Source: Candidatus Omnitrophota bacterium
Lineage (GTDB): Bacteria > Ratteibacteria > UBA8468 > B48-G9 > JAFGKM01
Length of the DNA stretch: 64,000 bases
Direction of reading: 5' to 3'
Assembly (NCBI GenBank): GCA_023819375.1
Contig: JAMWDI010000005.1
Coordinates: 1 to 64,000, forward strand
Every line of letters starts with the position of its first letter. Positions within the stretch are counted from its first letter, which is position 1. The translations under genes and the position numbers were made by a program. The notes beneath the pieces were generated by a model that did no database searches, was not told the origin of the DNA, and saw only the letters and a program-made list of their open reading frames with translations. Positions 14,503 through 32,382 of the stretch are shown here, in pieces.

Positions 14503-14529
14503 TTTGTCCCCCCTTTATAAATCTAAAAA

Positions 14530-14601
14530 TGGACCCGGGCGGATTCGAACCACCAACCAACGGATTATGAGTCCGCTGCTCTGCCGTTGAGCTACGGGTC
14601 C
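14530..14601 (-). tRNA. tRNA with CAT anticodon (elongator Met or Ile2)
   Basis: 72 bases. The 7-bp acceptor GGACCCG pairs with CGGGTCC. There is a D-arm AGCTCAACGGCAGAGC, an anticodon arm with loop CTCATAA, and a T-loop TTCGAAT. The first pair is G-C, so this is not a bacterial initiator tRNA. Elongator Met and lysidine-modified Ile2 cannot be separated by eye. CCA is not encoded, and a run of five T follows the discriminator base. Confidence 0.93.
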
Positions 14602-14612
14602 TTTATTTATAT

Positions 14613-14641
14613 ATTATACTACTTTAAAAAAATTTTTTCAA
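14613..14641 (-). promoter_or_regulatory. Strong sigma-70-like promoter of the CAT tRNA
   Basis: On the minus strand TTGAAA (14641-14636), a 17-base spacer and a perfect TATAAT (14618-14613) lie 12 bases before the tRNA 5-prime end. Confidence 0.75.
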
Positions 14642-14692
14642 CCCTTTGTCAGTTTAAATATGATTATTTTTCTTTCTTATGTAAAGTTATTC

Positions 14693-17482
14693 TTAATTGA
14701 AAGAAATGACATAAAATTTAATTTCTCCTGGCAAAATCCTTATTTTTTCTTTATAGTTTTCTATATTTTCCTTTATTTTTATCTTTTCACCAGTTGATTT
14801 GAGAAGAAAAATTTTAAACTTTTCTTTTTTTTCTTCACTTTCTTCTCTGAAATCCTTAAACTCATAATCAAATACATATTCTTTTTCTGGATTTCTGTTA
14901 AAAAATATAATACCTATACTTCCATCTTTATAGGAAAGATAACATCTTCCATCAACAGCAGGAACTTCTATTTCCCCTAATTTATCATCAACATATTTTA
15001 TTTTTTCCTCAATTTTAACCAGCGGTGGTTTTAAAAATTTTCCTAACCTTAAATATTCAATACCTACAATTGAATAATCACATATTTCTTTTAATTTCTT
15101 CCACAATTTGTTATACATATTTAAATTCTTTTTAAACCCTTCTTTCAAAGGCAAATGCAAAATAATTTCATCTGCAAAAAGTCTACCTATTATACTTCCA
15201 TCAAGAAATAAGGTACTAACTTCAACATAGAATTTAACTGGATCTTTAAAGTGCTGTTCCGTTATTCTTCTTCCATGTCCCATTTGATAATCTCCAAATA
15301 CTGCTCTTCTTAATGGTATATAATTTGGTGTTATATTATTTGAGAAAAGAACAATGTCTATCAAATCACAATAAGTTTCTGTTCCACCCTCATTCAATAA
15401 TATAATATCCTTATCTATCCTTTTCAACTCTTCTCTTAATCTACTTGCAAATTTTCTCTGACTCATAACACACAAATTTCCTCCTCCTTGAAAATGACCA
15501 TGCTCTGCAGAAAAACATTCATTTTGTCTTCTCCCAAAACTATCAAGATATATTCCTTTCACTTTCAGTTTTTCAATTGCTTCTTTACATAAATTTAAAA
15601 ATCTATTTTGCCACCAGTCAGTATACCAGCACATATCCCAGAAAGGACTATTTTCACTATAAAGAGAGACTTTACCTTCTACATTTCTTACTGTCCATTT
15701 TTCTGCATTTTTGGCATCTTCTTCATCCCATTTATAGTCATACATTCTTGCATTTAAATAAGCAATAGTATAGATATCTTTTTTATTTAATCTTTCTACA
15801 ATTTCTGGAATAACATCTGTGATTAAGGGTATATCTAAATTACCATGGTGGGCTAAACAATCTGGTTTATCTCTTGCAGATTTTTCTTTATAAAATTTTT
15901 TCCATTGATATAGCACATTTACAAAAGGATATCTTATAAAATTATAAAGTTCAGAAATATTTTCAAATATATTCTCAAAAATAATCCTGTTTTCTTTTTC
16001 ATCTTTTTTCCAGTCCCCATTTATTTTGACTATTAAACACATTCTTTTTGCCCAATCGGGAATATCATTTCTAAAATATACAGGTCCTTTCCGGCACCAT
16101 TCCTGTTTTATAAACCAATTTCTATAAATCTGAGAGGCCTCATACCATGTCCCTTTGTAGAAAATTATTTTAAAAAGATACGGAGATTTATATTCTTTTG
16201 TACTTATTCTGTTTTCTGGAAATATTTTTAAATAAAAATTGATAGTTTTATTTTTCGGATATATATAAAAACCAAATTCTTTATCACTTGCAGAAGAATC
16301 TTCAGGTGAAAAATAAATACCTGTTTGGTTTTTATCATTATAAATTGCAAAAAATTGCATCAAACAGGAACCTGAAGGGTAAAGATATCTCTCAAAAATT
16401 TTTTCTTTATCTAAATATGAATAAAATGGATCTTTTAATAATTTCCCTCCATAACTATAAGGAAAAACAATATAATTATTTAGGGGCTCATTTCCAATAG
16501 GCATTATGAAAAAATTGGGATATATAATTTCCCATATGCTACTTTCCTTATCTTTAAAGTTAAAATGGCAATTAATATCAAAAGAAATTTCTGCAACCTT
16601 TTTTTTCAAAAAAATCCTATATTCAACAAATCCATCTATTTCTGGGAATATTAATTCTTTGTAATTCCATTTTATGTAATTTGTTTCTCCATCTTCATTT
16701 TTTTCAAAATTTACCTTTTTAAAAGTTTTAGGGGAAATTGCATATCTTTTTTCTTGCTTTTTTATATTAATTTTCCATAAATCTTCTCCGTTCCCTCTAA
16801 TAATTTCCTCATTTTTATAAAACACTCCATATAGATTGCCATCATTTTTAAACTTTATAATAATTTCTCTATTATTTATTTCAACTATATTTTCAACCTC
16901 TTCTATATTTTCATCAATTTTTATTTTCTTAATATATCCCAAAAAAGGTTGCTTTTTTGACACATCGTTTCCTAATATTTGCACACCATCCTCTACAAAA
17001 TTGAATTTTTTAAGTATTTTTTCACTACATTTTTTTTCATTGTTGAAATATATTTCAAAGCTCTCTCCTGATTTATATATCAACTTTATCTCATTCCATT
17101 TACCTATTTCTTCATCTTTAAGTTTAAAAGTCAAATATATCCATTTATTTTCACCTCTACAATAATATCCCCATGCCACACCTTTTCCATTAACTCCAAG
17201 AGAAAAACCATCTCCATTTTTGGTATAGATTCTCCATATTGTTTGATCTCTATATTTTGCTTCTGGAATTAAAAACTCTATTTTTACCATCCCTTTTTCT
17301 TTTGGAAAAAATTTATATGGAATTTCTATAAAATCTCCTTCTTTCTCAAATTTCGCTCCATTTTCACTATCTATAAAAGAAAAAACTTTCACTTCTGAAG
17401 GCAAGTTTTTTTCAATAAAATTAATTTCATAACAAAAACAAAATTTTAAAACTAAAAGAAACAAAATTATTTCTTTTCTCAT
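14693..17482 (-). CDS. Secreted glycoside-hydrolase-like protein with LamG-like N-terminal domain
   Basis: 929 residues with a signal peptide (hydrophobic residues 5-17 and a short CYEI border). Residues about 30-200 resemble a concanavalin/laminin-G-like beta-sandwich (WRIYTKNGDGFSLGVNGKG, KWNEIKLIYKSGESFEIYFN). The middle and C-terminal parts contain a TIM-barrel-like region with IYLDSFGRRQNECF (an aspartate at a strand end) and ILLNEGGTETYCDL (glutamate), then beta-rich sequence. This resembles the uncharacterised DUF6259-type proteins of planctomycete-related bacteria, but that label is from memory. It follows a LacI regulator and a prepilin in one operon, supporting a role in polysaccharide use outside the cytoplasm. 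Confidence 0.65.
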   Translation of the reverse strand: MRKEIILFLLVLKFCFCYEINFIEKNLPSEVKVFSFIDSENGAKFEKEGDFIEIPYKFFPKEKGMVKIEFLIPEAKYRDQTIWRIYTKNGDGFSLGVNGKGVAWGYYCRGENKWIYLTFKLKDEEIGKWNEIKLIYKSGESFEIYFNNEKKCSEKILKKFNFVEDGVQILGNDVSKKQPFLGYIKKIKIDENIEEVENIVEINNREIIIKFKNDGNLYGVFYKNEEIIRGNGEDLWKINIKKQEKRYAISPKTFKKVNFEKNEDGETNYIKWNYKELIFPEIDGFVEYRIFLKKKVAEISFDINCHFNFKDKESSIWEIIYPNFFIMPIGNEPLNNYIVFPYSYGGKLLKDPFYSYLDKEKIFERYLYPSGSCLMQFFAIYNDKNQTGIYFSPEDSSASDKEFGFYIYPKNKTINFYLKIFPENRISTKEYKSPYLFKIIFYKGTWYEASQIYRNWFIKQEWCRKGPVYFRNDIPDWAKRMCLIVKINGDWKKDEKENRIIFENIFENISELYNFIRYPFVNVLYQWKKFYKEKSARDKPDCLAHHGNLDIPLITDVIPEIVERLNKKDIYTIAYLNARMYDYKWDEEDAKNAEKWTVRNVEGKVSLYSENSPFWDMCWYTDWWQNRFLNLCKEAIEKLKVKGIYLDSFGRRQNECFSAEHGHFQGGGNLCVMSQRKFASRLREELKRIDKDIILLNEGGTETYCDLIDIVLFSNNITPNYIPLRRAVFGDYQMGHGRRITEQHFKDPVKFYVEVSTLFLDGSIIGRLFADEIILHLPLKEGFKKNLNMYNKLWKKLKEICDYSIVGIEYLRLGKFLKPPLVKIEEKIKYVDDKLGEIEVPAVDGRCYLSYKDGSIGIIFFNRNPEKEYVFDYEFKDFREESEEKKEKFKIFLLKSTGEKIKIKENIENYKEKIRILPGEIKFYVISFN

Positions 17483-17485
17483 TTT

Positions 17486-18184
17486 TTATCTATCTGGATA
17501 CCAATAATCTTCATTACTTATAATATAGCAAGGGAAATCGGCAATATAATCAACTGTTCCAACTCTGATTAATCTGGAAGGATTATATTTTCTCCATTCT
17601 ACATGAAAATCACACCATAGAACATTTACTCCACCTTCATAAGTGGTTCCACCAAAACTTCCGTGTCTGTTAGAAATATATATTCCATATCCCTGCCAAA
17701 CATCTCCAACTGTATGATAAGAGATTGTAGGCCAGCCGGTATCCATCATCAAAATTTTTTTATTTGGATTCTTTATTTTTGAATACTTCAACATTCTGTA
17801 AGGAGAAGAAGGAACTACTAAACGACAGTTGCCACCATAACTCCCCCAGGTTGTGGATGGTTTTCTATCAGAAGGACACGTTAAAATTTTAATGTAATGT
17901 TGAGGCTTATCTGCTCCTGATTTTAAATATTTCCCAAGGATATAAGGTTGATACCACATATGTTGCAAAGACATTTCCAATGGTCTAAATCCTGGCAAAT
18001 ATTCATCATAATCTTGAGTATACATATTTATTGCAAGTCCTATTTGTTTTAAATTGTTAATACATGCTGCTATCCTTGCTCTTTCCCTTGCTCTACTTAA
18101 GGCTGGCAATAACATTGCTGCCAAAATAGCGATTATTGCAACTACAACAAGTAATTCTATTAAAGTAAATCCTTTCTTTTTCAT
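17486..18184 (-). CDS. Type IV prepilin-like protein (DUF1559-type)
   Basis: 232 residues. The N-terminus [28 protein letters not shown] is the class III/type IV prepilin signal: cleavage after G, methylated F, and the conserved E5. It runs into [35 protein letters not shown], the common Planctomycetes/Lentisphaerae-type pseudopilin start. The C-terminus has [11 protein letters not shown], matching the family G/N-x-LFCDGHV motif with F in place of G. The ATG overlaps the LacI stop (ATGA), and the glycosidase-like gene starts 3 bases downstream. Confidence 0.88.
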
Positions 18185-19155
18185 ATTTTCACCCCCTTTC
18201 TTTTTTTATATCCACACGATTCTCTTATTATTAATTCAGGATCAATTAAAATTTGACTTCTTTCTGTTCTTTCATTTAATTTTTTTAGTAATATTTCAAC
18301 TATTTTCTCTGCTATTTTTTCCTTAGGTTGATTTACCGTTGTTAATGAAGGATAGATATATTTACTCTCTTCAATATTATCAAATCCAACTATTCCTATA
18401 TCCTCTGGGATTCTTACATTTTCCTCTTTTAATGCTCTTATTGCTCCTATTGCTGAAACATCATTTAAACAAAAAATTCCTTCAACACCCCTTTTTAACA
18501 ATTCTTTAGCACCTTTATATCCTTCTTCAAAATATCCTAAACCTGAAAATATAATTTTTTTGTCAATACTTATTCCATAATCACTTAATGCTTCAATATA
18601 ACCCCTTGTTCTTTCTTCCTCAAAATAAGGACTACATAAAAAACCAATTTTTCTATATCCAATTTTTATTAAATGCTCTGTTGCCTTATATCCACCTTCA
18701 AATTTATTAACAGATACATAATCACCCTCTTCAACTTTTTCATATAAAACAACAGGTATTCCTGTTTTAACTGCTCTCAATATTTCAAAACCAATCTTAT
18801 TCGTTATAATTCCTTCTACTCTCCATCTTAAAAACATCTCAATTATTTCTTTTATATTTTCTTTATTTCCTGACATAATTAAACTAAAAAAACCTTTCTT
18901 TCTTAAGTTGTTCTGTAGAGCATAGGCAAATTCAGTGTAATAAGTAATAGAAAAATTAGGGATTATAATTCCTATTATATTTGTTTTTTTACAAACCAAA
19001 CTTCTTGCAATTTCATTAGGTTTATAATTTAACAATTCTGCTATTCTCTTTATCTTCTCCTTTGTTTTCTTATTTACCTTGTCTGAATCCCTTAAAGCAA
19101 GTGAAACAGTAGCGACTGAAACCCCAACTAATTCTGCTATTTCTTTTTGTCTCAT
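18181..19155 (-). CDS. LacI/GalR-family transcriptional regulator
   Basis: 324 residues. The N-terminal helix-turn-helix and hinge are intact ([20 protein letters not shown] at 3-22, [11 protein letters not shown] near 48-58). A periplasmic-binding-protein-like effector domain follows ([33 protein letters not shown] near 260-280). It heads the operon with the prepilin and the glycosidase-like protein, and two matching palindromes flank its promoter, so autoregulation by a sugar effector is likely. The effector cannot be read from the sequence. Confidence 0.93.
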
Positions 19156-19169
19156 TTTAATCGTTTTAT
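19156..19169. promoter_or_regulatory. Candidate LacI-family operator O2
   Basis: On the minus strand ATAAAACGATTAAA matches 11 of 14 positions of the perfect palindrome O1, including the central AAAACG half. It lies directly before the lacI ATG, downstream of the -10 box, where binding would block initiation or elongation. Confidence 0.5.
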
Positions 19170-19178
19170 TTTATTTAA

Positions 19179-19207
19179 ATTATTGCATAAATTTTAATTT
19201 GTGTCAA
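19179..19207 (-). promoter_or_regulatory. Sigma-70-like promoter of the lacI-prepilin-glycosidase operon
   Basis: TTGACA (19207-19202), a 17-base spacer and AATAAT (19184-19179, five of six matches) are spaced correctly for the lacI-family gene starting at 19155. Confidence 0.72.
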
Positions 19208-19213
19208 ATATTT

Positions 19214-19227
19214 TTAAAACGTTTTAA
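19214..19227. promoter_or_regulatory. Candidate LacI-family operator O1
   Basis: Perfect 14-base palindrome TTAAAACGTTTTAA with a central CG, the usual symmetry of LacI/GalR-family operators, ending 6 bases upstream of the -35 box. Its centre is 58 bases from O2. Confidence 0.65.
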
Positions 19228-19242
19228 TTCTATTAAAAAAAT

Positions 19243-20166
19243 TTAGTCTTCCCTTTCACCAATTGGGTCTATATGAATAGAAACTTCAGAATTTTCTATA
19301 TTTTCTTTTATTTTATCTTGAATTTCAAGTGCTATATCATGTGCTTGTTTTAATGAAATATTTTTTTCCACTTCAATATGTAAAGATATTATTTTTTTAT
19401 TTCCATAATCGTGAACTTTTATATCATGAAAACTTAAAACGTCAGGATTTAAAGAAATTACTTCTTTTATCTTTTCAATTGTATTTTTATCAGGTGCCTC
19501 TCCAATTAAGAAACTTGATGTCTTTTTAATTAAGTCATAAGCAATCCATAAAAGGAGTAAGACCACAAAAATTCCTAAAATCCCATCTAAATGATAAAAA
19601 CCATATTTCATAAAAATTAAACCAATTCCAACAATAAATGAAGCAATGCCATCCAATCTATGATGCCATCCATCAGCAATTAAAATATCTGAATTTATTT
19701 TTTTACCAAGATAAAAAGAAAATTTTGTCATCCATTCTTTAAAAATAGTAGAAAAAAACATGAATAAAATTATAAAAATTCCTGGCTGGATTGTTTGAGG
19801 GTTTTTTATTCTTAAAATAGAAATCTTACAAAGGTCTATACAGGCAAAAATTAAAAGAAAAGATATAATCAAAGTACCAATTTTCTCAATCCTCCCATGA
19901 CCAAATGGATGTTTGCTATCTGGTGGTTTTTTACTTAATTTAAATGAAAAAATAACAACTATTGAAGTTAATACATCTGATAAAGAATGGAATGCTTCAC
20001 TAATTAATGAAATACTTTTTAAAATGATACCAAATAAAATTTTTATGAAAAAAAGAAACAAATTTCCACTTATACTTATCCATCCTTCTAAATAACCCAA
20101 AAATTCTCTTGAAATTTCTTTGTTTTTAGTTAATCTTTCAAAAATTAAATTGCTTAACTTTTCCAT
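19243..20166 (-). CDS. Cation diffusion facilitator (zinc/divalent metal exporter)
   Basis: 307 residues with six predicted membrane helices. The paired metal-site motifs are HSLSD in helix 2 and HHRLD in helix 5, preceded by KKPPDSKHPFGHGRIEKIG, a hallmark cytoplasmic loop. A cytoplasmic C-terminal domain follows (SFHDIKVHDYGNKKIISLHIEVE). The HxxxD/HxxxD type is usually associated with zinc. The protein exports divalent metal in exchange for protons. The gene stands alone between the lacI operon promoter and the restriction operon end; I found no convincing promoter in its 71-base upstream gap. Confidence 0.92.
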   Translation of the reverse strand: MEKLSNLIFERLTKNKEISREFLGYLEGWISISGNLFLFFIKILFGIILKSISLISEAFHSLSDVLTSIVVIFSFKLSKKPPDSKHPFGHGRIEKIGTLIISFLLIFACIDLCKISILRIKNPQTIQPGIFIILFMFFSTIFKEWMTKFSFYLGKKINSDILIADGWHHRLDGIASFIVGIGLIFMKYGFYHLDGILGIFVVLLLLWIAYDLIKKTSSFLIGEAPDKNTIEKIKEVISLNPDVLSFHDIKVHDYGNKKIISLHIEVEKNISLKQAHDIALEIQDKIKENIENSEVSIHIDPIGERED

Positions 20167-20237: not shown

Positions 20238-23200
20238 TTATTCGTAAAGTATTGTGGCATGTTCATATATTTTATTAGAGATTTTATCAATAATTTCATA
20301 CTCAACATTTTCCTCAACTATACTCCTTAAAATTTCTTTTACTTCCATCTTAATTTTTGCTCTTAATGTTTCTTTTTTGTTCCAATCAACTATTTTAGTG
20401 TAATAACCCAATCTTTTTACAATTTCTCTTGCAATCTCTATAATAACTTTTTCATTTATAAAGATATCTTTTTCATTTGAAAGTATATCATAAAATGCAA
20501 GTTCCTCTTCAGTTAAATTTAATTTTTCTCCTTCTGCAATGATTTTTTTAATTTCTTTTGCAATCTGTATCAATTCTTCAATAACTTCAGCGGTATCCAA
20601 AATTTTAAAATTGTATTTTTCTATTAATCTTTTGAGTTTATTGTATAGTGATTTGTATCTTAAAGGATTCTTTCTTATTTTTACCTTAAGTTCACCTTCT
20701 AAAAGTTTTCTAAGTAAATCAATCGCATAATTTTTATACTCTATATTTTTAAACTGTAAAAGGAATTCTTCATCAAGTATTGAAATATCAGGTTTTTCTT
20801 TTTGAAGAAGAGAAAATATATCTACAGGTTCTTCGGCTGATATACTTTTTGAAATCAATTGATTTATTTCGTACTCAATGTCCCTTGATATTTCCGGTCT
20901 TGGTGCTGAATACTTTACAATCATTTTTTTAATCATTTCAAAGAATCTTATATCATCCTTAATTTTGATTGTTTCAGGATGAGGGCTTGTAAGAGCATAA
21001 ATTTTCTTTAAAACAACAAAATTTTTTATAAAATTCTTCTTTTTCTCTTCAGTATCCAATAAATTATATGCTGAAACTGTTAATTGGGAAAGTTCTTCTG
21101 GTTTCAATATTTTCCAGTTTTTATAGTCAATACCATAAAACATTGAGGAGACAATATCGTATTTTTCTTTTAGTAAATTTATAACCTTTTCTATGTCAGT
21201 TAAAACTTTTTCAATAGTTTCAACTGTATATCTACTTAATGACTTTCTTAAATCATCAGCGATACCTATATAATCAACAATAAGACCTCCTGGCTTATCT
21301 TTAAAAACCCTGTTTACTCTTGCTATTGCTTGAATCAAGTTGTGGTCTTTCATCGGTTTATCAAAATACATTGTATGAAGGCAAGGAATATCAAAACCAG
21401 TCAAAAGCATATCAACTACTATTACCATTTTTGGGTCTTTATCTGGATTTTTGAATTTGTTAAGGACTTCCTCCATTTCATATTTATTTCTAATATGGGG
21501 ATGAAATTCCTTAGGATCTCTTTGCTTATTACCGGACATTACAATTTCAATAGAAGGGGCATCTGGAATCTTTTGAATTGCATTATAAAGTTCTACAGCA
21601 ACCTTCCTTGAAATAACAACGATCATACCTTTTCCTTCGAGTTCTTGAGTCCTTTTGTTAAAATGCTCTACTATATCTTTTGCTATCTTTTCTATTCTTT
21701 CGGGATTTAAAATCAATCTTTCAAGTGTTGCATATTTTCTTTTTAAATATTCCTTTTCTTCCTCTTCAAGAGATTCTGAGATTTCTTCAAATTCTTCATC
21801 AATAAATTCATTTGTGAGATGTAATTTCACAAGTCTTGCCTCATAATAAATGGGAACAATCACTTTATGTCTTAATGCTTTATCCATTGAATAAATACTT
21901 ATTGGCTCGCCAAATACAAGATATGTGTCTCGGTCAGCAAGTTCAATAGGTGTTGCTGTAAATCCCATAAAAGATGCATTTGGAATTGCATTTCTTAAAT
22001 TTTGAGCAAGTTCTCTATACTGGCTTCTGTGCGCCTCATCTGCTATCACAATTATATTTTTCCTATCTGTTAAAAATGGGTATTCCTCCACATTTCTTTT
22101 TCCAAATTTCTGGATTGTGGCAAAAATTATTCCTCCTGCTGTTTTTATAATAATTTCCTGTAAATCCTTTATACTTTCTGCCTGCTTTACAATCGGCATT
22201 TGAGAAAAAAGACTATAAAGTTGTTCATCAAGATTTTTTCTGTCAGTGATAAATAAAAGCAAGGGATTTTCAAGTTCTTTTACCTTTAAAGTTTTTCTTG
22301 CATAAAATAACATTGTAAGAGATTTTCCAGAACCCTGAGTATGCCAGATAACGCCTATCCTCCTTTCTTCAGGATTTTTCCCTTCTAATATACACTTTTT
22401 GGTTCTTTCAACCGCTTTTTTAACCGAATAAAACTGATGAAATATAGCAATCTTTTTCTCATAATTTTCTCCAATTTTTTCATAAAAAATAAAATCGTTG
22501 ATATAATCAATAATATGTTCTTTTCTGAAAAGCCCTTTTATTAAAACCTCAAGAGATGTTATTTCTTTTTCATTATAAAAATAGCGATTGAAACCTTCTG
22601 CAATTTCCTCTACTTTTAAATCATCATCACTTGAAATACCTTCCCAGATAAAAAATCTTTCCCAATCGCTTGTAGGTGAACCATATCTTGTTTCATACCC
22701 ATCTGAAGCAACAAGAATCTGAGAATATATATAAAGTTGTGGAATATTTTTCATCTTTATTTTATGGTCATTATACGCATCCTTTGCTGTTTCATTTGTA
22801 TTAAAATTTTTAAATTCAAAAATTGCAATTGGAAGACCATTTATAAAAACGACAAGGTCTGGTTTCCTATACCAATCTTTTTCATATTGATACTCAACTT
22901 TAAACTGGTTTGCGATAAGGAAATCGTTATTTTCTGGATTTTCAAAATCTATTAATTTAACAATTCTTGTTTTCTCTTCCTTTTCTTCTTTAAATGTAAT
23001 TCTTACTCCGTTTGTTAAAAGTTCATAAAAGATTTTACCTTTCATTATAAAATCAGGATGGTCAAGATCTTTAACTTTCTTATAAACTTCTTCTGATTTT
23101 CTATCATCAAGCCAAGGATTAATCTTTTTGATTGCTGATAAGAATCTTTTCTTTAAAATAACATCTCTATAGGATTCCCTTTCTTCATTATCTGGAATTA

Positions 23201-23294
23201 AATCTGAGCCATGAATATAACTATAGCCAATCTCCTTAAACCACTCTATAGCCGGCTGTTCAACCATATAATCTTCAGTAAGTTGTGCTCTCAT
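20238..23294 (-). CDS. hsdR: Type I restriction enzyme, R subunit
   Basis: 1018 residues, full length. The PD-(D/E)xK nuclease shows PDLVVF (D146) and AIFEFKN (E160, K162). The SF2 motor has Walker A QGSGKS (320-325), DEAH (419-422) and GFTATP (444-449), followed by the second RecA domain (VVDMLLTGFDIPCLHTMYFDKP and QAIARVNR). The protein translocates DNA and cleaves unmethylated targets in complex with HsdM and HsdS. It is the last gene of the operon, overlapping the DCD-AAA+ gene as ATGA. The catalytic residues are intact, so restriction is probably active. Confidence 0.96.
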   Translation of the reverse strand: MRAQLTEDYMVEQPAIEWFKEIGYSYIHGSDLIPDNEERESYRDVILKKRFLSAIKKINPWLDDRKSEEVYKKVKDLDHPDFIMKGKIFYELLTNGVRITFKEEKEEKTRIVKLIDFENPENNDFLIANQFKVEYQYEKDWYRKPDLVVFINGLPIAIFEFKNFNTNETAKDAYNDHKIKMKNIPQLYIYSQILVASDGYETRYGSPTSDWERFFIWEGISSDDDLKVEEIAEGFNRYFYNEKEITSLEVLIKGLFRKEHIIDYINDFIFYEKIGENYEKKIAIFHQFYSVKKAVERTKKCILEGKNPEERRIGVIWHTQGSGKSLTMLFYARKTLKVKELENPLLLFITDRKNLDEQLYSLFSQMPIVKQAESIKDLQEIIIKTAGGIIFATIQKFGKRNVEEYPFLTDRKNIIVIADEAHRSQYRELAQNLRNAIPNASFMGFTATPIELADRDTYLVFGEPISIYSMDKALRHKVIVPIYYEARLVKLHLTNEFIDEEFEEISESLEEEEKEYLKRKYATLERLILNPERIEKIAKDIVEHFNKRTQELEGKGMIVVISRKVAVELYNAIQKIPDAPSIEIVMSGNKQRDPKEFHPHIRNKYEMEEVLNKFKNPDKDPKMVIVVDMLLTGFDIPCLHTMYFDKPMKDHNLIQAIARVNRVFKDKPGGLIVDYIGIADDLRKSLSRYTVETIEKVLTDIEKVINLLKEKYDIVSSMFYGIDYKNWKILKPEELSQLTVSAYNLLDTEEKKKNFIKNFVVLKKIYALTSPHPETIKIKDDIRFFEMIKKMIVKYSAPRPEISRDIEYEINQLISKSISAEEPVDIFSLLQKEKPDISILDEEFLLQFKNIEYKNYAIDLLRKLLEGELKVKIRKNPLRYKSLYNKLKRLIEKYNFKILDTAEVIEELIQIAKEIKKIIAEGEKLNLTEEELAFYDILSNEKDIFINEKVIIEIAREIVKRLGYYTKIVDWNKKETLRAKIKMEVKEILRSIVEENVEYEIIDKISNKIYEHATILYE

Positions 23295-24565
23295 AATCGT
23301 CCCAATAAATTACGATTACGTGCCCACTCTTCGTATCTTTGAATTTCTTCATCACCAACTGATTTTGGAATTCTGTTAATAGCGTCAAGTATGAATTCCT
23401 TTTTTATTATGTCTTTTTTTTCAAAAGCTTTAAAACTAGCTTCATCAACTATATTTTCAATATCTGCCCCAGAATATCCTTCTAATTTTTTAGCGATTTC
23501 CTTAATATCTTCATCTCTAAGGTTATGTTTTCTATCTTTAAGTTGGAGTTTTAAAATTTCAATTCGTGCTTGCTCATTTGGCAATCTAACGTAAAAAACT
23601 CTATCAAATCTCCCTGGACGAAGAAAAGCAGGGTCTATAAGTTCTGGTTTATTGGTTGCAGCAATAACAATAATAGGTTTTGTTCTCTCTTTAAAAATTT
23701 TGCCCAATAGTGACAAAAGAAGAGGTTTAAGTCGTGTCATTATAGTTGATCCCTCACCTGTTCTTTCACTGAGTATCCATTCTGCTTCGTCGAGGAATAA
23801 GACTGCTCTTGGCTCTTTCTTTAAGTCATCAAAAATTTTTTCTAATCTTTTTTCCGCCTCACCGGGGTATCCTGCAATTACAGATGGACTAATTTCTATA
23901 AATTTTGCTTCTATACTTTTTGCAATAGCTTGTGAAATTAGCGTTTTTCCTGTTCCTGGAGGACCAACAAGTAATATTCCGCCTCCGATTTTAAGTTTTA
24001 GTCTATAGGCACGTTCTTCATCTTCAAAAGGTGCAATTATTCTCTGATAAACAAATTGCTTTATTTCATCTAAACCTGCTACATTAGCCAATGAAAATTC
24101 CGACGAAGCGGAAGTTGCTTTAAGTTCTTGCAATTCTGATTCAAAATTAGTAGGTATTATAAAAAGTGATAGAACCTTATTAGTAATGTCTGGACCATAC
24201 GTTTTCATTTTAGTAACAAAATATGAAAAAGCCCCTCTATCTACTTTTTTCAACTCAAGAAAGTCCTTCAGTTTTTGTGAAGCATTGCTTATTCTCTGTA
24301 ATTCACCGATGAGTTCAACTTTTATCTGGGCAGGAAATTCGCCTCCCCAAGCTTCAGGTTCTATATTGAGCGCAGCTTCACTTTTTGCGATAAATATACC
24401 GAGAAGTTCATCTTTAGAAACATTTAATAAAAATCCAATATCTCCAATTTTTATTGTTTTTAGATATGGTAAGGCCCACTCACGTTCACCAAATAAATTT
24501 CTTGTAAGACATTCTTCTTCTGTTGAATTGGTACATAACATAAAAAAACAAGATTTCTCTATCAT
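23291..24565 (-). CDS. DCD-like domain fused to classical AAA+ ATPase
   Basis: 424 residues. Residues 5-135 resemble the DCD (development and cell death) domain of the PUA/EVE-like superfamily: FFMLCTNSTEEECLTRNLFG, LLGIFIAKSEAALNIEPEAW and FPAQIKVEL align with the plant-type pattern of an N-terminal cysteine/EC, LFG, LxGIFxA and FPAQV. Residues 160-400 are a classical AAA module: Walker A GPPGTGKT (201-208), Walker B VLFLDE (255-260), sensor N304, arginine fingers in FLRPGRFDR (R316, R319) and YSGADIE. All ATPase residues are present. GGAGGTGA before the ATG is a strong ribosome binding site. It lies between hsdS and hsdR, overlapping hsdR. Its role is unknown; recognition of modified nucleic acid or remodelling of the restriction complex are possibilities. 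Confidence 0.85.
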   Translation of the reverse strand: MIEKSCFFMLCTNSTEEECLTRNLFGEREWALPYLKTIKIGDIGFLLNVSKDELLGIFIAKSEAALNIEPEAWGGEFPAQIKVELIGELQRISNASQKLKDFLELKKVDRGAFSYFVTKMKTYGPDITNKVLSLFIIPTNFESELQELKATSASSEFSLANVAGLDEIKQFVYQRIIAPFEDEERAYRLKLKIGGGILLVGPPGTGKTLISQAIAKSIEAKFIEISPSVIAGYPGEAEKRLEKIFDDLKKEPRAVLFLDEAEWILSERTGEGSTIMTRLKPLLLSLLGKIFKERTKPIIVIAATNKPELIDPAFLRPGRFDRVFYVRLPNEQARIEILKLQLKDRKHNLRDEDIKEIAKKLEGYSGADIENIVDEASFKAFEKKDIIKKEFILDAINRIPKSVGDEEIQRYEEWARNRNLLGRL

Positions 24566-24795
24566 GTTACTTCACCTCCATTTCGGAAATTTGTAAAACA
24601 TTCATTCACTCTCATAATAACATCTCCTATAATTTTGTCCATAATGGTAGCCGCACCCTTCAGGTGCGTTATGTCCTGCAGGCTAAAGCATGTTGCTACC
24701 AAAAATATTAAATCCAAAATATTAAACAGGTAGCCGCAACCTTTAGATTGCGCAAATACCAATATTTTTAAAATATTATTTCCATCCTTCTTCAT
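24562..24795 (-). CDS. Small ORF of the RM operon carrying palindromic repeat DNA
   Basis: 77 codons. It overlaps the hsdS stop as ATGA at its start and the DCD-AAA+ start as ATGA at its end, as its neighbours do, and has GGAGG 4 bases before the ATG. Much of its middle (24646-24760) is repeat DNA. The last 26 codons (from MDKIIGDV) contain no repeat. It could be a small gene invaded in frame by the repeat, a remnant of a longer gene, or a chance frame. I recognise no family. Confidence 0.3.
   Translation of the reverse strand: MKKDGNNILKILVFAQSKGCGYLFNILDLIFLVATCFSLQDITHLKGAATIMDKIIGDVIMRVNECFTNFRNGGEVT
24646..24700. repeat. Palindromic interspersed repeat, unit 1
   Basis: 55 bases bounded by GGTAGCCGCA and TGTTGCTACC, which are near-inverted (8 of 10). 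Inside are two hairpins: a perfect CGCACC/GGTGCG stem, and a decayed one, GCAGGCTAAAGCATGTTGC. It is GC-rich compared with its surroundings and resembles REP/MITE-like palindromic elements. Confidence 0.8.
24729..24760. repeat. Palindromic interspersed repeat, partial unit 2
   Basis: 32 bases in the same orientation as unit 1, beginning GGTAGCCGCAACCTTTAG and forming the imperfect hairpin CGCAACC/GATTGCG, ending ATACC. It looks like a decayed half-unit separated from unit 1 by 28 AT-rich bases. Confidence 0.7.
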
Positions 24796-26045
24796 ACCTC
24801 CTCCACCCTTAATTTTCCAAAAACAAGTAAAGGCAAAAGTTTATCCCTGATTTTTCTTAAAAGCATAATTTGTTTTTGATTAAAAATGATTTTTTGAAAT
24901 AATGGTTCAACAAGGGAATGGAATTTTTGGAGGATGGGAGGAGGGGGAAGAACTATTATTTTATTTTGCATAAACAATCTTACATTGAGATGTAAAACAT
25001 TTACACCATTAGCAAAAGTAGAATTTTCTTCTTGTGTTTGTTTTAAATGTAAATATAGATATAATTTAAGATACTCATAATTGGGCTGCAATTTCATACA
25101 ATCTAAAGATATAATACCAAAATCATATTCTTCTGGTAAAAAAACAAATGCTGGAGCACCAACAACCTTTGCTTCATAAGTTATATCAGTGAGTGCTATA
25201 ATTAAATCCCCTTCTTTTACTTTATGTTGCTCTTTCGCTCTATTTCCAATATAATAAATGTATTCTGTTTTAAAACCACCTCCACGAATAAAATTATTTA
25301 AGGTAATAAAAATATCTCCTTGTGGTTCTGAACAAGTATCGGGTGAATTATAAGATACACCTTTAAATCCTATTGTAATTTCACCTAATCTCTTCACTTC
25401 CCACCCCTTAGGTATCTTTCCTAACTCACTATCAACAAATTCGCCATCTTTAAATGGTTCAAAGTCAATGAACCAGTTTTTGAATATTGCCATTGCTGTT
25501 TTTTCCAAAATTTCATTCTGCCTTTTCTTGTTTTCTATCAAATCATCAAAATAGGATAAAACAGTCGCAATGCGATTTTGTTCAGGAAGGGGTGGATATG
25601 GGATAGAGATCGCTAAAAGATAATCTTTATCAACATGCCTATCATCTGTACCTGACTTGGCATCTTTTAGTTTATCCTCATTTAATTTTAATCCAAAGTA
25701 GAGAAAATTCTTCTCAATATTTTTTTCAAAAACAAATTTACACATTGTAGAAGCAAGTAACCCTTTTTCCCCCTTAAAAATTTCACCAGCATTTGAACCA
25801 TCCCATAAAATTATAATATCACTTTTATCCGCAAGTATTCCTGCATTCTCCTCATAATATCCTTCAGGCTCTTCTTCACCTCTTAAATATTTTGCTGATA
25901 AATATGGGACATTTCCATATATTTTCCGAGGAGTTCTACCCTTGATAATATCTATTACTAAAGTCCTTAATTCTCTAACTTCCCAATCCCTCGGTATCTC
26001 TCCAATTTCTGTTTCCTTAAATTCGGTTTCCCAGTGGAATTTCAT
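24792..26045 (-). CDS. hsdS: Type I restriction enzyme, specificity subunit
   Basis: 417 residues with the two-repeat layout of HsdS. Each half begins with a target recognition domain introduced by IGEIPRDWEVRELRTLV (near 13) and LGKIPKGWEVKRLGEIT (near 208). Each ends in a conserved helical spacer, PPLPEQNRIATVLSYFDDLI (near 156) and PPILQKFHSLVEPLFQKI (near 374). The two domains differ, so the target is probably bipartite and asymmetric. It shares an ATGA junction with the HEPN gene. Confidence 0.95.
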   Translation of the reverse strand: MKFHWETEFKETEIGEIPRDWEVRELRTLVIDIIKGRTPRKIYGNVPYLSAKYLRGEEEPEGYYEENAGILADKSDIIILWDGSNAGEIFKGEKGLLASTMCKFVFEKNIEKNFLYFGLKLNEDKLKDAKSGTDDRHVDKDYLLAISIPYPPLPEQNRIATVLSYFDDLIENKKRQNEILEKTAMAIFKNWFIDFEPFKDGEFVDSELGKIPKGWEVKRLGEITIGFKGVSYNSPDTCSEPQGDIFITLNNFIRGGGFKTEYIYYIGNRAKEQHKVKEGDLIIALTDITYEAKVVGAPAFVFLPEEYDFGIISLDCMKLQPNYEYLKLYLYLHLKQTQEENSTFANGVNVLHLNVRLFMQNKIIVLPPPPILQKFHSLVEPLFQKIIFNQKQIMLLRKIRDKLLPLLVFGKLRVEEV

Positions 26046-26452
26046 TTTAAATCTCTTTCACTTATTTTTAACTTTTTAAAAATAAATTCTTTTACTTTTT
26101 GTGCTGATTCAAATGCCTTTTTTGCTTCCTCAATTGTTGGTATATAAAATTCATCAGGATATCTTACATCTATTGCATAATCGGTTAAATTTGCTGTTAT
26201 ATCGTAGAGAAATTCAAATTCTTTATCTATCTTTTCACAAAGTTTAATCAAATACTCAATACTATGAACTCTTCCAAATTCTACACTTGAAGCAACAAGA
26301 AAAGCCTTCAAAAATTTCTCAACAGCCTGCTGGCAATGAAAACATAAAGTATCTGTAACTATCTCTTCTTCAGGTAAATTTATTAAAATTTCAGCAGTTT
26401 TTAAATCATTTAATCCCTTTGTTAACCATTTTTTAATTTCTTCTTCTATCAT
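26042..26452 (-). CDS. HEPN-domain protein
   Basis: 136 residues, all helical. The core HCQQAVEKFLKAFL (39-52), VHSIEYLIKLC and the late VRYPDEFY (96-103) match the PF05168-type HEPN domain. The usual Rx4-6H ribonuclease motif is not present, since the only nearby pair is R61-V-H63. It may be a non-catalytic or diverged HEPN. It is paired with a minimal nucleotidyltransferase immediately upstream (ATGA overlap), the classical HEPN/MNT arrangement often behaving as toxin and antitoxin. Its position inside a restriction operon is unusual. Confidence 0.9.
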   Translation of the reverse strand: MIEEEIKKWLTKGLNDLKTAEILINLPEEEIVTDTLCFHCQQAVEKFLKAFLVASSVEFGRVHSIEYLIKLCEKIDKEFEFLYDITANLTDYAIDVRYPDEFYIPTIEEAKKAFESAQKVKEFIFKKLKISERDLK

Positions 26453-26766
26453 AAAATAATCCCTTCTCCAATCGCACTTCTTATAACACTACCAATTACA
26501 CCTTTCCTTTTTTCAAACTCCTCTTCTGACTTAATTAGAACATCACAGGGTATAAATTCATCGGCAAGTGCCTTTCTTATAAGATGGGAAATTTTTAACC
26601 TTTCTTCTCTTAAAAGTTTCTTATTAATTACAATAAGTAAATCCCAGTCGCTTCTTTCCTTATAATCTCCCCTTGCTCGTGAACCAAAGAGAATAATCTT
26701 CAAAACCTTAATTTTATTCTCTTCACATATTCTATTCACAATTTTTTTAATTATTTCTTCTGTCAT
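26449..26766 (-). CDS. Minimal nucleotidyltransferase (MNT)
   Basis: 105 residues. The polymerase-beta-like signature LFGSRARGDYKERSDWDLL (27-44) supplies the GS motif and metal-binding D40 and D42; the third carboxylate is D75 in PCDVLIKS. All catalytic residues are present. MNT proteins of HEPN/MNT pairs can AMPylate or otherwise modify the HEPN partner. It starts 3 bases downstream of hsdM and overlaps the HEPN gene, so it is translated with the RM genes. Confidence 0.92.
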   Translation of the reverse strand: MTEEIIKKIVNRICEENKIKVLKIILFGSRARGDYKERSDWDLLIVINKKLLREERLKISHLIRKALADEFIPCDVLIKSEEEFEKRKGVIGSVIRSAIGEGIIL

Positions 26767-26769
26767 TTT

Positions 26770-28293
26770 TCATATCTCCCATCCTAATGCTTTAAAAACT
26801 TCTTTAATCTTTTCTTTAAGTTTTTCTTCTTCCTCTAAAAGTTTGGAAAGTTCTTCTGAATAGTTTTTCATTGCTTCTTCAAAAGGAATATCCTCTTCCT
26901 CAAGTTTAACACCCACATACCTACCAGGAGTTAAAACATAGCCATTTTTTGCAACTTCTTCTAAACTGGCAACCTTTGAAAATCCAACTTCGTTTATCTT
27001 TTCTTCATTTTCTCCTTTTTCAAACATCCTGAATTTTTCAACAATCTTTTTTATATGTTCTTCTACAAAAATATTTTGTCTCCTTGATATTGGTTTAAAT
27101 AATTTTTTAGCATAGATAAAAAGAATTTTCCCTCTCATATGTTCTGGCTTTGATTTCCTCAAAAACCATAAGGAAGCAGGAAGAGAAACAGTGTAAAACA
27201 TCTTTGGTGGAGTTGCTATTATTCCATAAACAAGGTCATCTTCAATTATCTTTTTTCTTATTTCTCCTTCAATCCCTCCCACAGATAAAGCTCCGTTTGC
27301 CATAACAAAACCTGCTTTTCCATTAGGTGCAAGATGATAAATATAATGTTGTATCCATACATAATTTGCATTGTTTTCTGGCGGAAGGCCATATTTAAAT
27401 CTTGGATCATTTTCTTTTATTCTATCTCTTCCCCAGCCACTATCATTAAAAGGTGGATTTGAGACAACATATTCTGCTCTTAAATCAAAAAATTTATCAT
27501 CATGATAAGAATCACCCCATCTTATATCTCCTTCTGTACCTCTTATTACCAAATTCATCTTGCACATTTTCCAGACAAATTCCTTTGATTCCTGTCCATA
27601 AATTGATAATCTTTCTTTCTCAATTTCTTCTTTTTCAAGTTTTTCTAAGGCAGATACAAAAAATCCTCCAGAACCGCAGGCAGGGTCAAAAATTCTACCT
27701 TCTTTTACATCAAGGATTTCTACAATAAGTTTTGTTAATGAACGAGGAGTATAAAACTCACCACCTTTTCTTCCTTCTGCTTCAGTGAATTTACCAAGGA
27801 AATACTCATAAATTCTTCCAAAGATGTCTTTGCCAAAGTGATCATCATCAAATTCAATTTCAGAGAAAAGATTTATGAGATAAGATAAATCATAAGGATC
27901 AAGATTTACTTTTGAATAAATTTTTGGAATAATGTCTTTTAGTTGCCTTGGATATTCTTCTTCAAGAATTTCTATTGCTTTGTCTATTATTTCTCCAATA
28001 TTTGGTTGATTGGCGTTTTTCTTTATATATTCCCATCTTGCCTTTTCAGGGACATAAAGAGTGCCATTTGCAAGATAAACGTCTTTATCTTCACAAATTT
28101 TCTCTATGAATTTCTCAGATGAAGATTTTTCTTTTAAAATTTTTATCTTTTTTTCTTCAAAGGCAAATGATAAATACTTTAAAAATATAAGTCCTAAAAC
28201 AACATACTTATACTCGTGAACCTCGATCTTTTTTCTTAACTTATCAGCTCCCTTCCAAAGTTTATCTTCAAAATCTAATTCTTTTCCCTTCAT
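26770..28293 (-). CDS. hsdM: Type I restriction enzyme, N6-adenine methyltransferase subunit
   Basis: 507 residues. An N-terminal helical domain (KLWKGADKLRKKIEVHEYKYVVLGLIFLKYLS-type start) precedes the methyltransferase: the GGEFYTPRSLTKLIVE pocket (178-193), motif I DPACGSGGFF (203-212) and motif IV NPPF (279-282). It methylates adenine in the HsdS-defined target. It is the first RM gene and begins only 4 bases after the aminotransferase gene, so no separate promoter is evident. Confidence 0.96.
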   Translation of the reverse strand: MKGKELDFEDKLWKGADKLRKKIEVHEYKYVVLGLIFLKYLSFAFEEKKIKILKEKSSSEKFIEKICEDKDVYLANGTLYVPEKARWEYIKKNANQPNIGEIIDKAIEILEEEYPRQLKDIIPKIYSKVNLDPYDLSYLINLFSEIEFDDDHFGKDIFGRIYEYFLGKFTEAEGRKGGEFYTPRSLTKLIVEILDVKEGRIFDPACGSGGFFVSALEKLEKEEIEKERLSIYGQESKEFVWKMCKMNLVIRGTEGDIRWGDSYHDDKFFDLRAEYVVSNPPFNDSGWGRDRIKENDPRFKYGLPPENNANYVWIQHYIYHLAPNGKAGFVMANGALSVGGIEGEIRKKIIEDDLVYGIIATPPKMFYTVSLPASLWFLRKSKPEHMRGKILFIYAKKLFKPISRRQNIFVEEHIKKIVEKFRMFEKGENEEKINEVGFSKVASLEEVAKNGYVLTPGRYVGVKLEEEDIPFEEAMKNYSEELSKLLEEEEKLKEKIKEVFKALGWEI

Positions 28294-28297: not shown

Positions 28298-29437
28298 TTA
28301 ATGAGAAAATAAAATCTCTTTGGCTTTTTCTATTCCTTTTTCAATATTAAGTTTATAACCAAATTTTTCAAGTCCAACACCAACAGCAGTTATTGCAGTC
28401 AAAACATCAAATTCGTCTTGCCATCCAAGATGTGAAATTCTTACAATTTTACCTTTAAGTTTATCCTGTCCTCCTGCTATTGAAATACCATATGTTTTCC
28501 TTATGAATTTTATAAGTTCATCTCCATTTATACCTTCCGGCAATATAACTCCAGTAACTGCATCTGATGGACAGGAAGAAAGAAGCGATAATCCCATTGC
28601 TAAAATACCCTCTCGTGTCGCAGTTGCCCTTTTTTTGTGCTCCTCCCATATTTTTTCAAGAGTGTATTCTTTTATTATCTGTATTGATTTCCTTAAGCCC
28701 ACAATTAAAGATACTGGTATTGTAAATGGAAAATCAAATTTTTCAAGTGATTTTTTATATTTTTTAAGATCAAAATAATATTTTGGAAGATTTGATTTTT
28801 CAACTCTTTCCCATGCTTTTTCACTTAATGAAATAAAAGAAAGTCCTGGTGGAAGCATAAATGCTTTCTGAGATCCAGTTAATAAACAATCTATTTTCCA
28901 TTCATCCATATAACATGGAATTGCTCCAAGAGAACTAATTGCATCAACAATAAAAACTATATCTGGATATTTAGATATAATTTCTCCATATCCTTTTACA
29001 TCAAAATGGGTTGCTGTTGAGGTTTCACATAAATTTACACAAACTCCTTTTGCATCTCTATTTTCTTCTATTATTTTTTCAAGTTCTTCTTTAGATAAGG
29101 ATTTTCCCCATTCTACTTTGATATCAACAACATTGAGTTCATATGCTTTTCCTATTTCTACAAATCTTTCTCCAAACTTACCTCCATTTATTACAATTAT
29201 CTTTTCGCTTTTAGAAAAAAGATTAACTATACTACTTTCCATTGCTCCTGTCCCTGAAGATGCGAGAATAAAAACATCATTTTTTGTTTGAAATAAATAT
29301 TTAAGTCCCTCAAAAACTTCTTTCGCTATTTTTAAAAATTCTTCTGTCCTATGATGCATAATAGGTTTTGCCATTTCAAGAAGGACTTCTTCTGGAATAC
29401 TTGTTGGCCCTGGTGTGAAAAGTTTATGTTTTTTCAT
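28298..29437 (-). CDS. Class V aminotransferase (alanine-glyoxylate / serine-pyruvate type)
   Basis: 379 residues. The N-terminal LFTPGPTSIPEEVL (6-19), IMHHRTEEF, the ASSGTGAMESSIVNLFS phosphate-binding loop (60-76), VDAISSLGAIP and the PLP lysine in TGSQKAFMLPPGLSF are typical of SgaA/AGT-like enzymes. It could serve glycine, serine or glyoxylate metabolism, or the archaeal-type phosphoserine route; phylogeny is needed to decide. A strong GGAGGG lies inside the 3-prime end of lon, which it overlaps by 14 bases. Confidence 0.88.
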   Translation of the reverse strand: MKKHKLFTPGPTSIPEEVLLEMAKPIMHHRTEEFLKIAKEVFEGLKYLFQTKNDVFILASSGTGAMESSIVNLFSKSEKIIVINGGKFGERFVEIGKAYELNVVDIKVEWGKSLSKEELEKIIEENRDAKGVCVNLCETSTATHFDVKGYGEIISKYPDIVFIVDAISSLGAIPCYMDEWKIDCLLTGSQKAFMLPPGLSFISLSEKAWERVEKSNLPKYYFDLKKYKKSLEKFDFPFTIPVSLIVGLRKSIQIIKEYTLEKIWEEHKKRATATREGILAMGLSLLSSCPSDAVTGVILPEGINGDELIKFIRKTYGISIAGGQDKLKGKIVRISHLGWQDEFDVLTAITAVGVGLEKFGYKLNIEKGIEKAKEILFSH

Positions 29438-31781
29438 ATTCCCTCCTGTTTAATAAAGCATGCTCTAAAACTTCCTTTACATCTTCAACTTCAATTATTT
29501 CAAGAGACTCCTTTATTTTTTTTGGTATTTCAACGAGATCTTTATCATTTTCCTTAGGAATAATTACCTTTTTAATGCCTGCTCTCTGGGCAGCAAGAAT
29601 CTTCGCCTTAAGACCACCAATTTTTAAAACCTTTCCCTGTAATGTAATTTCTCCTGTCATAGCCAAATTTGCATCAACAGGTCTTTTTGTTAAAGAAGAA
29701 ACAAGAGCAGTAATAATTGTAACTCCTGCAGAAGGACCATCTTTTGGTATTGCTCCCTCAGGGACATGAATATGAATATCAACCTCTTTATAAAAATCTG
29801 GACTTATACCAAATTCTTCTGAATGAGCCCTTACATAACTTAAAGCTGCACGAGCAGATTCTTTCATTACATCTCCAAGTTGTCCTGTTAAAATTAAATC
29901 TCCTTTTCCTTTCATAATTAAAACTTCTGTAAAAATAATTTCTCCTCCATATTCTGTCCATGCCATACCTGTTGCAACTCCAATTTTGTTTTCTTTTTCA
30001 ATTTCAATAGATGAATATTTTTCTGGTCCAAGATATTTTTCTAAGTTTTTTACTGTTATTAAATAAGGACCTTCTTTCTTTGTTTCTACAATTTTCTTTG
30101 TTACTTTCCTGCATATATTAGCAATTTCTCTTTCTAAATTTCTCACACCTGCTTCTCTTGTATAATTTTTAATAATTTTAAAAATGGCCTCATCTGAAAA
30201 TTTTATGTTATTTTCTGTAAGTCCATGTTCTTTCATTTGTTTTGGTATAAGAAAATTTTTCGCAATCTCTTTTTTTTCCCAGACAGTATAACCAGGAAGA
30301 TGTATAACTTCCATTCTATCAAGAAGAGGTGGAGGAATTGTAAATTCTGTATTTGCTGTTGTTATAAAAAGAACTTTTGAAAGGTCAAATTCAACTTCAA
30401 GATAATGGTCAGAAAAATTTTTATTTTGTTCAGGATCTAAAACTTCAAGTAAAGCACTTGCAGGATCGCCTCTAAAATCTTTTCCCAGTTTATCTATTTC
30501 GTCTAACAAAAATACAGGATTATTTACTCCTGCTTTCCTTATTGATTGAATTATTCTGCCAGGTAAAGAACCAATATATGTTCTTCTATGCCCTCTTATT
30601 TCTGCTTCATCCCTAACCCCGCCAAGAGAAACTCTTACAAATTTTCTTCCAAGGGCGCGTGCAATTGATTTGCCAAGGGAAGTTTTACCAACACCAGGAG
30701 GACCTACAAAACACAAAATTGGACCTCTTAAAGAATCTGTTCTACTTCTTACTGCAAGATATTCAAGTATTCTTTCTTTAACTTTTTCAAGTCCATAATG
30801 GTCTTCATCCAATATTTTTTTGGCATGATTTATATCAAGATTATCTTCTGTTGAAATACTCCAGGGTAAACTACATAACCATTCAATATAAGTTCTTGAA
30901 ACTGTCGCTTCAGGAGAAAGAGGCATCATTTTACTCAACCTATTTAATTCTTCAAGAGCCTTTTCTTCAACGTTTTTTGGCATATTGGCTTTTTTAATTT
31001 TTTCTCTCAATTCTGCAATTTCTGGAGTTTCCTCTTCTTTCCCAAGTTCTCTTTGAATCTGTTTAAGTTGCTCTGTTAATATGTACTGTCTTTGTGTATC
31101 TTCAATTTTTTTAACAACCTTATCCTGTATTTTTTTCTGAATTTCAAGAATCTCAACTTCTTTATTTAAAATGTCAATTAAAATACTTATTCTTTCTCTC
31201 AAAGATATTGTTTCAAGAACTTTTCCTTTATCCTTCAATTTTAAAGGTAGATATCCTGCTATAGCATCACATATTCTATAAGGATTTTCCATCGTAGAAA
31301 TTGTTGCATATAGTTCTTTTGGAACTGATAGATTAAGAGAAAGATACTTTTGGAGTAAATCAAGTAAAAGACGTACCATTGCCTCTATTTCTGTATTCAT
31401 CTCATATTCTTCTTTTATAAATTCAAAATTAACAGCAAAATAATTTTTATAAGTTGTAAAATCAATTATTTTTACTCTATCTGTAACCTCAACAAGTATT
31501 TTCATAACTCCTGTGGTTTCCTTTAAACTCTGTATAATTTTTGAAAATACCCCTATGGAATATATATCTTCATATTTTGGATCTTCAATATTAGGATCTC
31601 TTTGAAAAACTATTATAAGATTCCCATCATTTGATATTGCCTCTTCAATTGCATTAAGTGATTTTGTCCTACCAACAAAAAGAGGAACAACCATATGAGG
31701 GAAAATTATAAGGTCTCTTAAAGGTAAAGCAGGGGCATTTTTCTTTTTTATTTTTGTTTCTGATTTTTTTAATAATGCCAT
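29424..31781 (-). CDS. lon: ATP-dependent protease Lon
   Basis: 785 residues, complete. It has an N-terminal LON substrate domain (LPLRDLIIFPHMVVPLFVGR), a coiled middle, Walker A GPPGVGKTSLGK (near 365), Walker B VFLLDEIDK, and the serine-lysine protease domain with KDGPSAGVT near 680. It degrades damaged and regulatory proteins in the cytoplasm. It lies one base after the clpP stop, and clpX, which commonly separates clpP from lon, is absent. Confidence 0.98.
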   Translation of the reverse strand: MALLKKSETKIKKKNAPALPLRDLIIFPHMVVPLFVGRTKSLNAIEEAISNDGNLIIVFQRDPNIEDPKYEDIYSIGVFSKIIQSLKETTGVMKILVEVTDRVKIIDFTTYKNYFAVNFEFIKEEYEMNTEIEAMVRLLLDLLQKYLSLNLSVPKELYATISTMENPYRICDAIAGYLPLKLKDKGKVLETISLRERISILIDILNKEVEILEIQKKIQDKVVKKIEDTQRQYILTEQLKQIQRELGKEEETPEIAELREKIKKANMPKNVEEKALEELNRLSKMMPLSPEATVSRTYIEWLCSLPWSISTEDNLDINHAKKILDEDHYGLEKVKERILEYLAVRSRTDSLRGPILCFVGPPGVGKTSLGKSIARALGRKFVRVSLGGVRDEAEIRGHRRTYIGSLPGRIIQSIRKAGVNNPVFLLDEIDKLGKDFRGDPASALLEVLDPEQNKNFSDHYLEVEFDLSKVLFITTANTEFTIPPPLLDRMEVIHLPGYTVWEKKEIAKNFLIPKQMKEHGLTENNIKFSDEAIFKIIKNYTREAGVRNLEREIANICRKVTKKIVETKKEGPYLITVKNLEKYLGPEKYSSIEIEKENKIGVATGMAWTEYGGEIIFTEVLIMKGKGDLILTGQLGDVMKESARAALSYVRAHSEEFGISPDFYKEVDIHIHVPEGAIPKDGPSAGVTIITALVSSLTKRPVDANLAMTGEITLQGKVLKIGGLKAKILAAQRAGIKKVIIPKENDKDLVEIPKKIKESLEIIEVEDVKEVLEHALLNRREYEKT

Positions 31782-31782
31782 T

Positions 31783-32382
31783 TTATTTAGAAAGTTTTGT
31801 GGGTTGTATTATTTTATCAGCAAGTCCATAGTTTATTGCTTCTTCTGCGTCCATAAAATAATCTCTTTCCGTATCTTTTTCTATTTTTTCTATTGGTTGA
31901 CCTGTATGCTTTGAAAGAATTTTATTTATAATTTCTCTCAATCTAATCATTTCTTTTGTATGAATACTAACATCAATAACACTTCCTTCTACTCCTCCCC
32001 ACGGTTGATGAATTAAAATTCTACTATGTGGTAATAAAAATCTTTTTCCTTTTGTTCCTCCTGCCAGTAAAACAGCCCCCATACTTGCTGCCTGTCCTAT
32101 GCAATAAGTACAAACATCGCAAGAAACATATTGCATAGTATCATATATTGCAAGTCCTGCTGTTATGGATCCACCAGGAGTGTTCAAATATAAATGTATA
32201 TCTTTTTTGGGATCTTCATTTTGAAGAAAAAGAAACTCAGCAATTACAATATTTGCCACGTGGTCTGTTATTGGAGAACCTATAAATATAATTCTGTCTT
32301 TCAACAATCTTGAATAAATATCATATGCTCTTTCCCCTCTTTCAGTTGTTTCTATAACATAAGGTATTAATTGGTCTTTCAT
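31783..32382 (-). CDS. clpP: ATP-dependent Clp protease proteolytic subunit
   Basis: 199 residues. The catalytic triad is the serine in [14 protein letters not shown] (near 98), the histidine in [12 protein letters not shown] (near 123) and the aspartate in [11 protein letters not shown] (near 172). ClpP forms the tetradecameric chamber used with an unfoldase; ClpC encoded at 54.4-56.9 kb is a candidate partner. It overlaps the trigger factor gene as ATGA. Confidence 0.98.

Follow-up and report, generated by a model that had tools for sequence, protein, structure and literature searches.

The dcd-aaa gene and its operon

Based on Pfam matches we found a complete type I restriction-modification (RM) operon on the minus strand of the window, a stretch of 64,000 nucleotides from a Candidatus Omnitrophota bacterium, with hsdM, hsdS and hsdR all of full length. 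In minus-strand order it consists of hsdM, a gene for a minimal nucleotidyltransferase (MNT), a HEPN-domain gene, hsdS, a stretch of 226 bp, the gene that we call dcd-aaa, and hsdR (Table 1). An earlier note on this DNA, made from the letters alone, had placed a DCD-like domain at positions 24155-24565, which correspond to residues 1-137 of the dcd-aaa protein, and had described the gene as coded next to HsdR. The two genes are in fact closer still, with the dcd-aaa stop and the hsdR start sharing 4 bp (ATGA).

Table 1. Features of the RM operon and of the dcd-aaa protein, with positions in the window
Feature	Position	Strand	Remarks
hsdM	26770..28293	-	N6-adenine methyltransferase (Pfam)
MNT gene (PF01909)	26449..26766	-	minimal nucleotidyltransferase, within RM operon
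HEPN-domain gene (PF05168)	26042..26452	-	within RM operon
hsdS	24792..26045	-	two Methylase_S stretches (Pfam)
hsdS/dcd-aaa intervening stretch	24562..24795	-	open for 77 codons; overlaps hsdS stop and dcd-aaa start; insertion boundary
dcd-aaa	23291..24565	-	424 aa; DCD, linker and classic AAA module
Predicted EVE-like barrel	24158-24565	-	residues ~1-136, from model
DCD domain (PF10539)	24281..24544	-	residues 8-95, Pfam match
AAA core (PF00004)	23585..23977	-	residues 197-327, 110 bits
Walker A, GPPGTGKT	23942..23965	-	residues 201-208; G201 and P203-T208 invariant in seven fusions
Pore-loop-1 region, AGYPGEAE	23852..23875	-	residues 231-238
Walker B, LFLDEAE	23780..23800	-	residues 256-262
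Arginine-finger segment, RPGRFDR	23600..23620	-	residues 316-322
AAA_lid_3 (PF17862)	23417..23515	-	residues 351-383
hsdR	20238..23294	-	type I restriction subunit, 1018 aa; start overlaps dcd-aaa stop

Some further features of the surroundings were observed. The MNT and HEPN genes form a pair (26042-26766) between hsdM and hsdS; a VRYPDEF segment is present in the HEPN protein, and the R-x4-6-H RNase motif was absent from it when judged by eye. The RM operon follows directly behind tig, clpP, lon and aminotransferase genes on the same strand (28298-33380); clpP and lon have no clpX between them. Genes resembling mcsA, mcsB and clpC are located at 54391-58352.

Domains of the dcd-aaa protein

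DCD domains are known mainly from plant proteins involved in stress and cell death. The N-terminal part of the dcd-aaa protein matched PF10539 with 62.2 bits (E 5e-17) against a curated cut-off of 27.8, and all four motifs that had been listed for it earlier were present, namely CTNSTEEEC (residues 11-19), LFG (24-26), LLGIFIA (54-60) and FPAQ (77-80). Judged by its sequence, dcd-aaa begins with a true DCD domain, as had been claimed, and the domains of the protein as a whole are certain. A single DCD copy was found in this 1.73-Mb genome (PF10539, 65 bits), and PF10539 was not found in 14 control genomes.

Residues 1-145 were modelled with AlphaFold2, with two homologues included, and the model had a mean pLDDT of 91.9, being confident in only two of the five models. 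Its best structural matches were two EVE proteins, PH1033 at Z 13.1 (rmsd 2.4 over 120 residues) and MJECL36 at Z 12.3; m6A-bound YTH domains came next, together with the EVE part of VcaM4I, a modification-dependent restriction enzyme (Z 11.2). The EVE-like fold that the earlier note had proposed was thus recovered in the prediction, with matches to both EVE and YTH at Z 11-13, and the DCD is predicted to have the EVE/YTH (PUA-like) fold. A search with the DCD as a single sequence against PDB sequences found nothing, and there was no viral fold match with E < 0.001. With a profile of 18 prokaryotic DCDs searched against whole PDB sequences, MJECL36 (E 0.003) and PH1033 (E 0.019) were the best matches, which gives independent support to the kinship of EVE and DCD reported with HHpred in the main text of Bell, Wolf and Koonin 2020 (PMC7641849).

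The EVE domain of VcaM4I reads 5mC and 5hmC, and its pocket residues are P24, W82 and Y130 (PMC7897488). In the seven intact DCD-AAA fusions described below, Y123 and G124 are invariant and W73 is not. It is plausible, from what is known of the family, that the DCD senses modified bases. At a pI of 5.3 the DCD of this genome is acidic, in contrast to the basic DCDs of six relatives (pI 8.4-9.7), and this is a mild caution against such a base-reading function. VcaM4I resembles the dcd-aaa protein in having an N-terminal reader of the same fold but carries an HNH nuclease as effector (PMC7897488), where dcd-aaa has an AAA ATPase; no nuclease domain was found in the dcd-aaa protein with Pfam.

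The AAA module has all of its motifs intact (Walker A, Walker B, sensor 1, arginine finger and the SGAD lid), and 117 positions are invariant across the seven fusions, the catalytic motifs among them. In pore loop 1, position 233 is an aromatic Y or F in six aligned members, and P234-E238 (PGEAE) is invariant in all seven fusions. By sequence the nearest relative is p97/VCP (E 5e-78), and a less confident model of the whole protein (pLDDT 74) matched FIGL-1, p97 D2, Vps4 and spastin with Z around 25. These are ATPases that act on proteins. An AAA+ motor had been named correctly in the earlier note, and AAA_lid_3 can now be added to the PF00004 core, but its type has to be corrected to the protein-acting one: according to sequence comparison and model, the module is of the classic Cdc48/Vps4/spastin type. 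Its homology suggests that the protein would form a hexamer that remodels proteins. The dcd-aaa protein shares AAA sequence, fold, motifs and lid with Cdc48/p97, Vps4, spastin and FIGL-1 but differs from this group in having a single AAA module with the DCD as its N-domain; we know of no DCD among the N-domains of these proteins.

Other identities were considered for the protein and rejected. McrB does not fit, as AAA_5 gave only 25.8 bits against 110 for PF00004, and the neighbours are HsdS and HsdR, with no McrC. IetA of the IetAS system, an AAA protein from the same broad group that is linked to defence as well, gave 116 bits with the PADLOC IetA model, but the match of 103.5 bits was far below the NCBIfam equivalog cut-off of 510, and among the operon genes Pfam found no IetS-like subtilisin protease that could act as its partner. 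PrrC and RloC do not fit either, since Pfam gave significant matches to DCD, AAA and AAA lid, and to no ABC ATPase or anticodon nuclease.

Probable insertion at the hsdS/hsdR junction and spread of the fusion

The stretch between hsdS and dcd-aaa holds two GCGGCTACC repeats (24646-24740). As the frame of 77 codons at this place contains these repeats, its coding status is doubtful, and it is probably not a gene. Within the window GCGGCTACC is confined to the hsdS-hsdR junction, and it also occurs before hsdR in a related genome, G026 (L081 9650-9886). A close HsdR was detected in two of the 35 genomes of the phylum, G005 (81% identity) and G026 (66%). In G005, hsdS runs directly into hsdR with the same ATGA overlap and without dcd-aaa. 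The hsdR of G026 is directly preceded by what is left of the hsdS end and, before that, by several copies of the short repeat, again with no dcd-aaa there. A DCD search of both genomes found none. The junctions of G005 and G026 identify dcd-aaa as a separable module, and its gain in the present operon is a simpler reading than its loss elsewhere.

Additionally, we surveyed the distribution of the fusion by PF10539 searches and one contig scan, comprising 1,976 genome look-ups, a figure that includes repeats and other queries. Seven intact DCD-AAA fusions were obtained, in this genome and in G002, G013, G519, G640, G404 and G1380, together with one decayed copy in Candidatus Kryptonium; this host range is a lower bound, with Archaea outside the survey. 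Haloarchaeal plasmid matches to the whole protein were AAA proteins without a DCD match and were rejected, and no DCD relatives were found in viral contigs, plasmids or phages.

As a plain count, four of the eight copies are at defence loci, and these are of four kinds (type I, type II and type III RM, and Cmr CRISPR). In G519 the fusion follows a type III RM operon at a distance of 67 bp (Mod matched with 859 bits and Res with 84 bits), and in G640 the fusion (L053 9313-10605) is separated by 350 bp from the Cmr type III-B CRISPR operon that comes after it (10956-19901). The Kryptonium remnant has an MNT gene and a HEPN remnant on one side (L011 9391-9990) and an N4/N6 methyltransferase with an MjaI-type endonuclease on the other, with a ParA gene near. 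Two copies (G013 and G404) have no recognised defence neighbour, the G013 contig being only 6.5 kb long, and the remaining two were too fragmentary for their context to be judged; the G002 fusion is at a contig end, and the G1380 fusion, on a contig of 3.4 kb, adjoins an HTH gene similar to one of the Kryptonium element. An obligatory link to type I RM was rejected, since the other copies are located elsewhere. The tree of the fusions conflicts with taxonomy, as G002, which belongs to the order of this genome, pairs with G640 from another phylum at 72-78% identity, and this conflict points to horizontal transfer.

Possible roles in restriction and defence

Since the AAA is of the protein-acting type, the fusion looks like a protein remodeller that is guided by a reader. 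Our preferred explanation, which we hold tentatively, is that dcd-aaa is a mobile defence accessory in which the reader would bring an unfoldase to DNA-bound complexes, those of restriction or others. The AAA modules would assemble into a ring, which would attach through its DCD domains to nucleic acid that carries a particular modified base. Protein complexes at this site would then be dismantled by the ring, which has a conserved aromatic pore loop. In this operon the likeliest client would be HsdR or the assembled RM complex, and the outcome could be a built-in, modification-dependent control of restriction, comparable to the action of ClpXP on the HsdR of EcoKI. ClpXP, an AAA+ unfoldase-protease, acts on translocating EcoKI HsdR and in this way alleviates restriction, and the authors of that work considered such control to suit motor-driven systems (PMC4231737). 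This precedent makes HsdR a sensible client; the argument on motors applies to the type I and type III loci, though not to the Cmr one. The likeness to ClpXP on EcoKI is a functional analogy only, as ClpX is from a different clade of AAA+ proteins, lacks a base reader, acts together with a protease and is coded outside the RM operon. Restriction control by dcd-aaa is, on this analogy, a leading guess. It has against it that the sister RM operons do without dcd-aaa, and HsdR cannot be the universal client, as the copies of G013 and G404 have no recognised defence genes near them and the CRISPR genes of G640 are without HsdR.

A narrower version, which we consider rather unlikely, is that of an RM-encoded ring unfoldase, mobile between RM systems of types I and III, the DCDs of which would read a base mark, e.g. 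the operon's own m6A, and which would strip HsdR motors off self DNA, resulting in restriction alleviation. If the ring does act on HsdR, a type I RM system would have a self-contained way to spare its host, and protein remodelling would join the outputs that are wired to modified-base readers. The cell may use base modification as a signal for starting or stopping its restriction enzyme or some other defence. Additionally, the combination of a compact bacterial DCD, a well-understood ATPase and restriction as a readout may offer a practical route to the ligand of DCD.

It is possible, if on the unlikely side, that the protein is instead a defence effector resembling type IV restriction, in which the DCD would recognise the modified DNA of a foreign phage, and HsdR or other nucleases would be recruited or activated against it by the AAA ring. 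Restriction would in this way be extended to DNA that otherwise escapes the RM enzyme. The base-reading EVE of VcaM4I (PMC7897488) and the occurrence of the fusion at varied defence loci agree with this, as does the main text of Bell, Wolf and Koonin, where DCD and EVE domains fused to nucleases and McrB-like motors are proposed as modification-dependent specificity modules (PMC7641849). It speaks against an effector of this kind that the protein has no nuclease domain, that its ATPase is of the protein-remodelling type and that there is no McrC-like partner among the genes of the operon.

Unlikely, in our opinion, is an independent selfish or housekeeping gene that stands in the RM operon by chance, with a DCD that may bind RNA or tRNA and an AAA for general protein quality control. 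The copies without recognised defence neighbours and the sister RM operons without dcd-aaa agree with it, and according to the main text of Bell, Wolf and Koonin RNA binding is known for YTH and predicted for eukaryotic DCD (PMC7641849). Against it stand the four of eight copies at defence loci of four kinds and the ATGA overlap with hsdR.

Most doubtful is a guard resembling PrrC or RloC, silenced by the RM complex and released on phage block to hit a cell component: the genetically linked type I RM enzyme holds PrrC inactive, rlo genes are found inserted into RM loci of type I and also into some of type III (PMC2610378), and the present operon also carries the MNT-HEPN pair, but dcd-aaa encodes an unrelated protein with no recognisable toxic domain, such as an anticodon nuclease, and with an ATPase that differs from the ABC ATPase of PrrC.

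The earlier note had regarded the setting as little studied, which holds in part. Prokaryotic DCDs, their rarity, their kinship with EVE and their location near type I RM are already known from the main text of Bell, Wolf and Koonin (PMC7641849), and the present DCD resembles theirs in family, rarity and the type I RM link. The fusion partners named in that main text are methyltransferase, PD-(D/E)XK and McrB-like domains, and a Cdc48-type AAA fusion is not named there (PMC7641849). In comparison with that main text, the fusion to a Cdc48-type AAA, its occurrence at several kinds of defence loci and the comparison with empty sites appear to be new. The other prokaryotic DCDs that we met were for the most part either DCD-methyltransferases with a restriction-nuclease-like gene behind them or short proteins, architectures that agree with the same main text (PMC7641849); one of the short proteins, a stand-alone DCD (G306, 269 aa, L055 9024-9833), is encoded downstream of hsdR in a type I RM locus.
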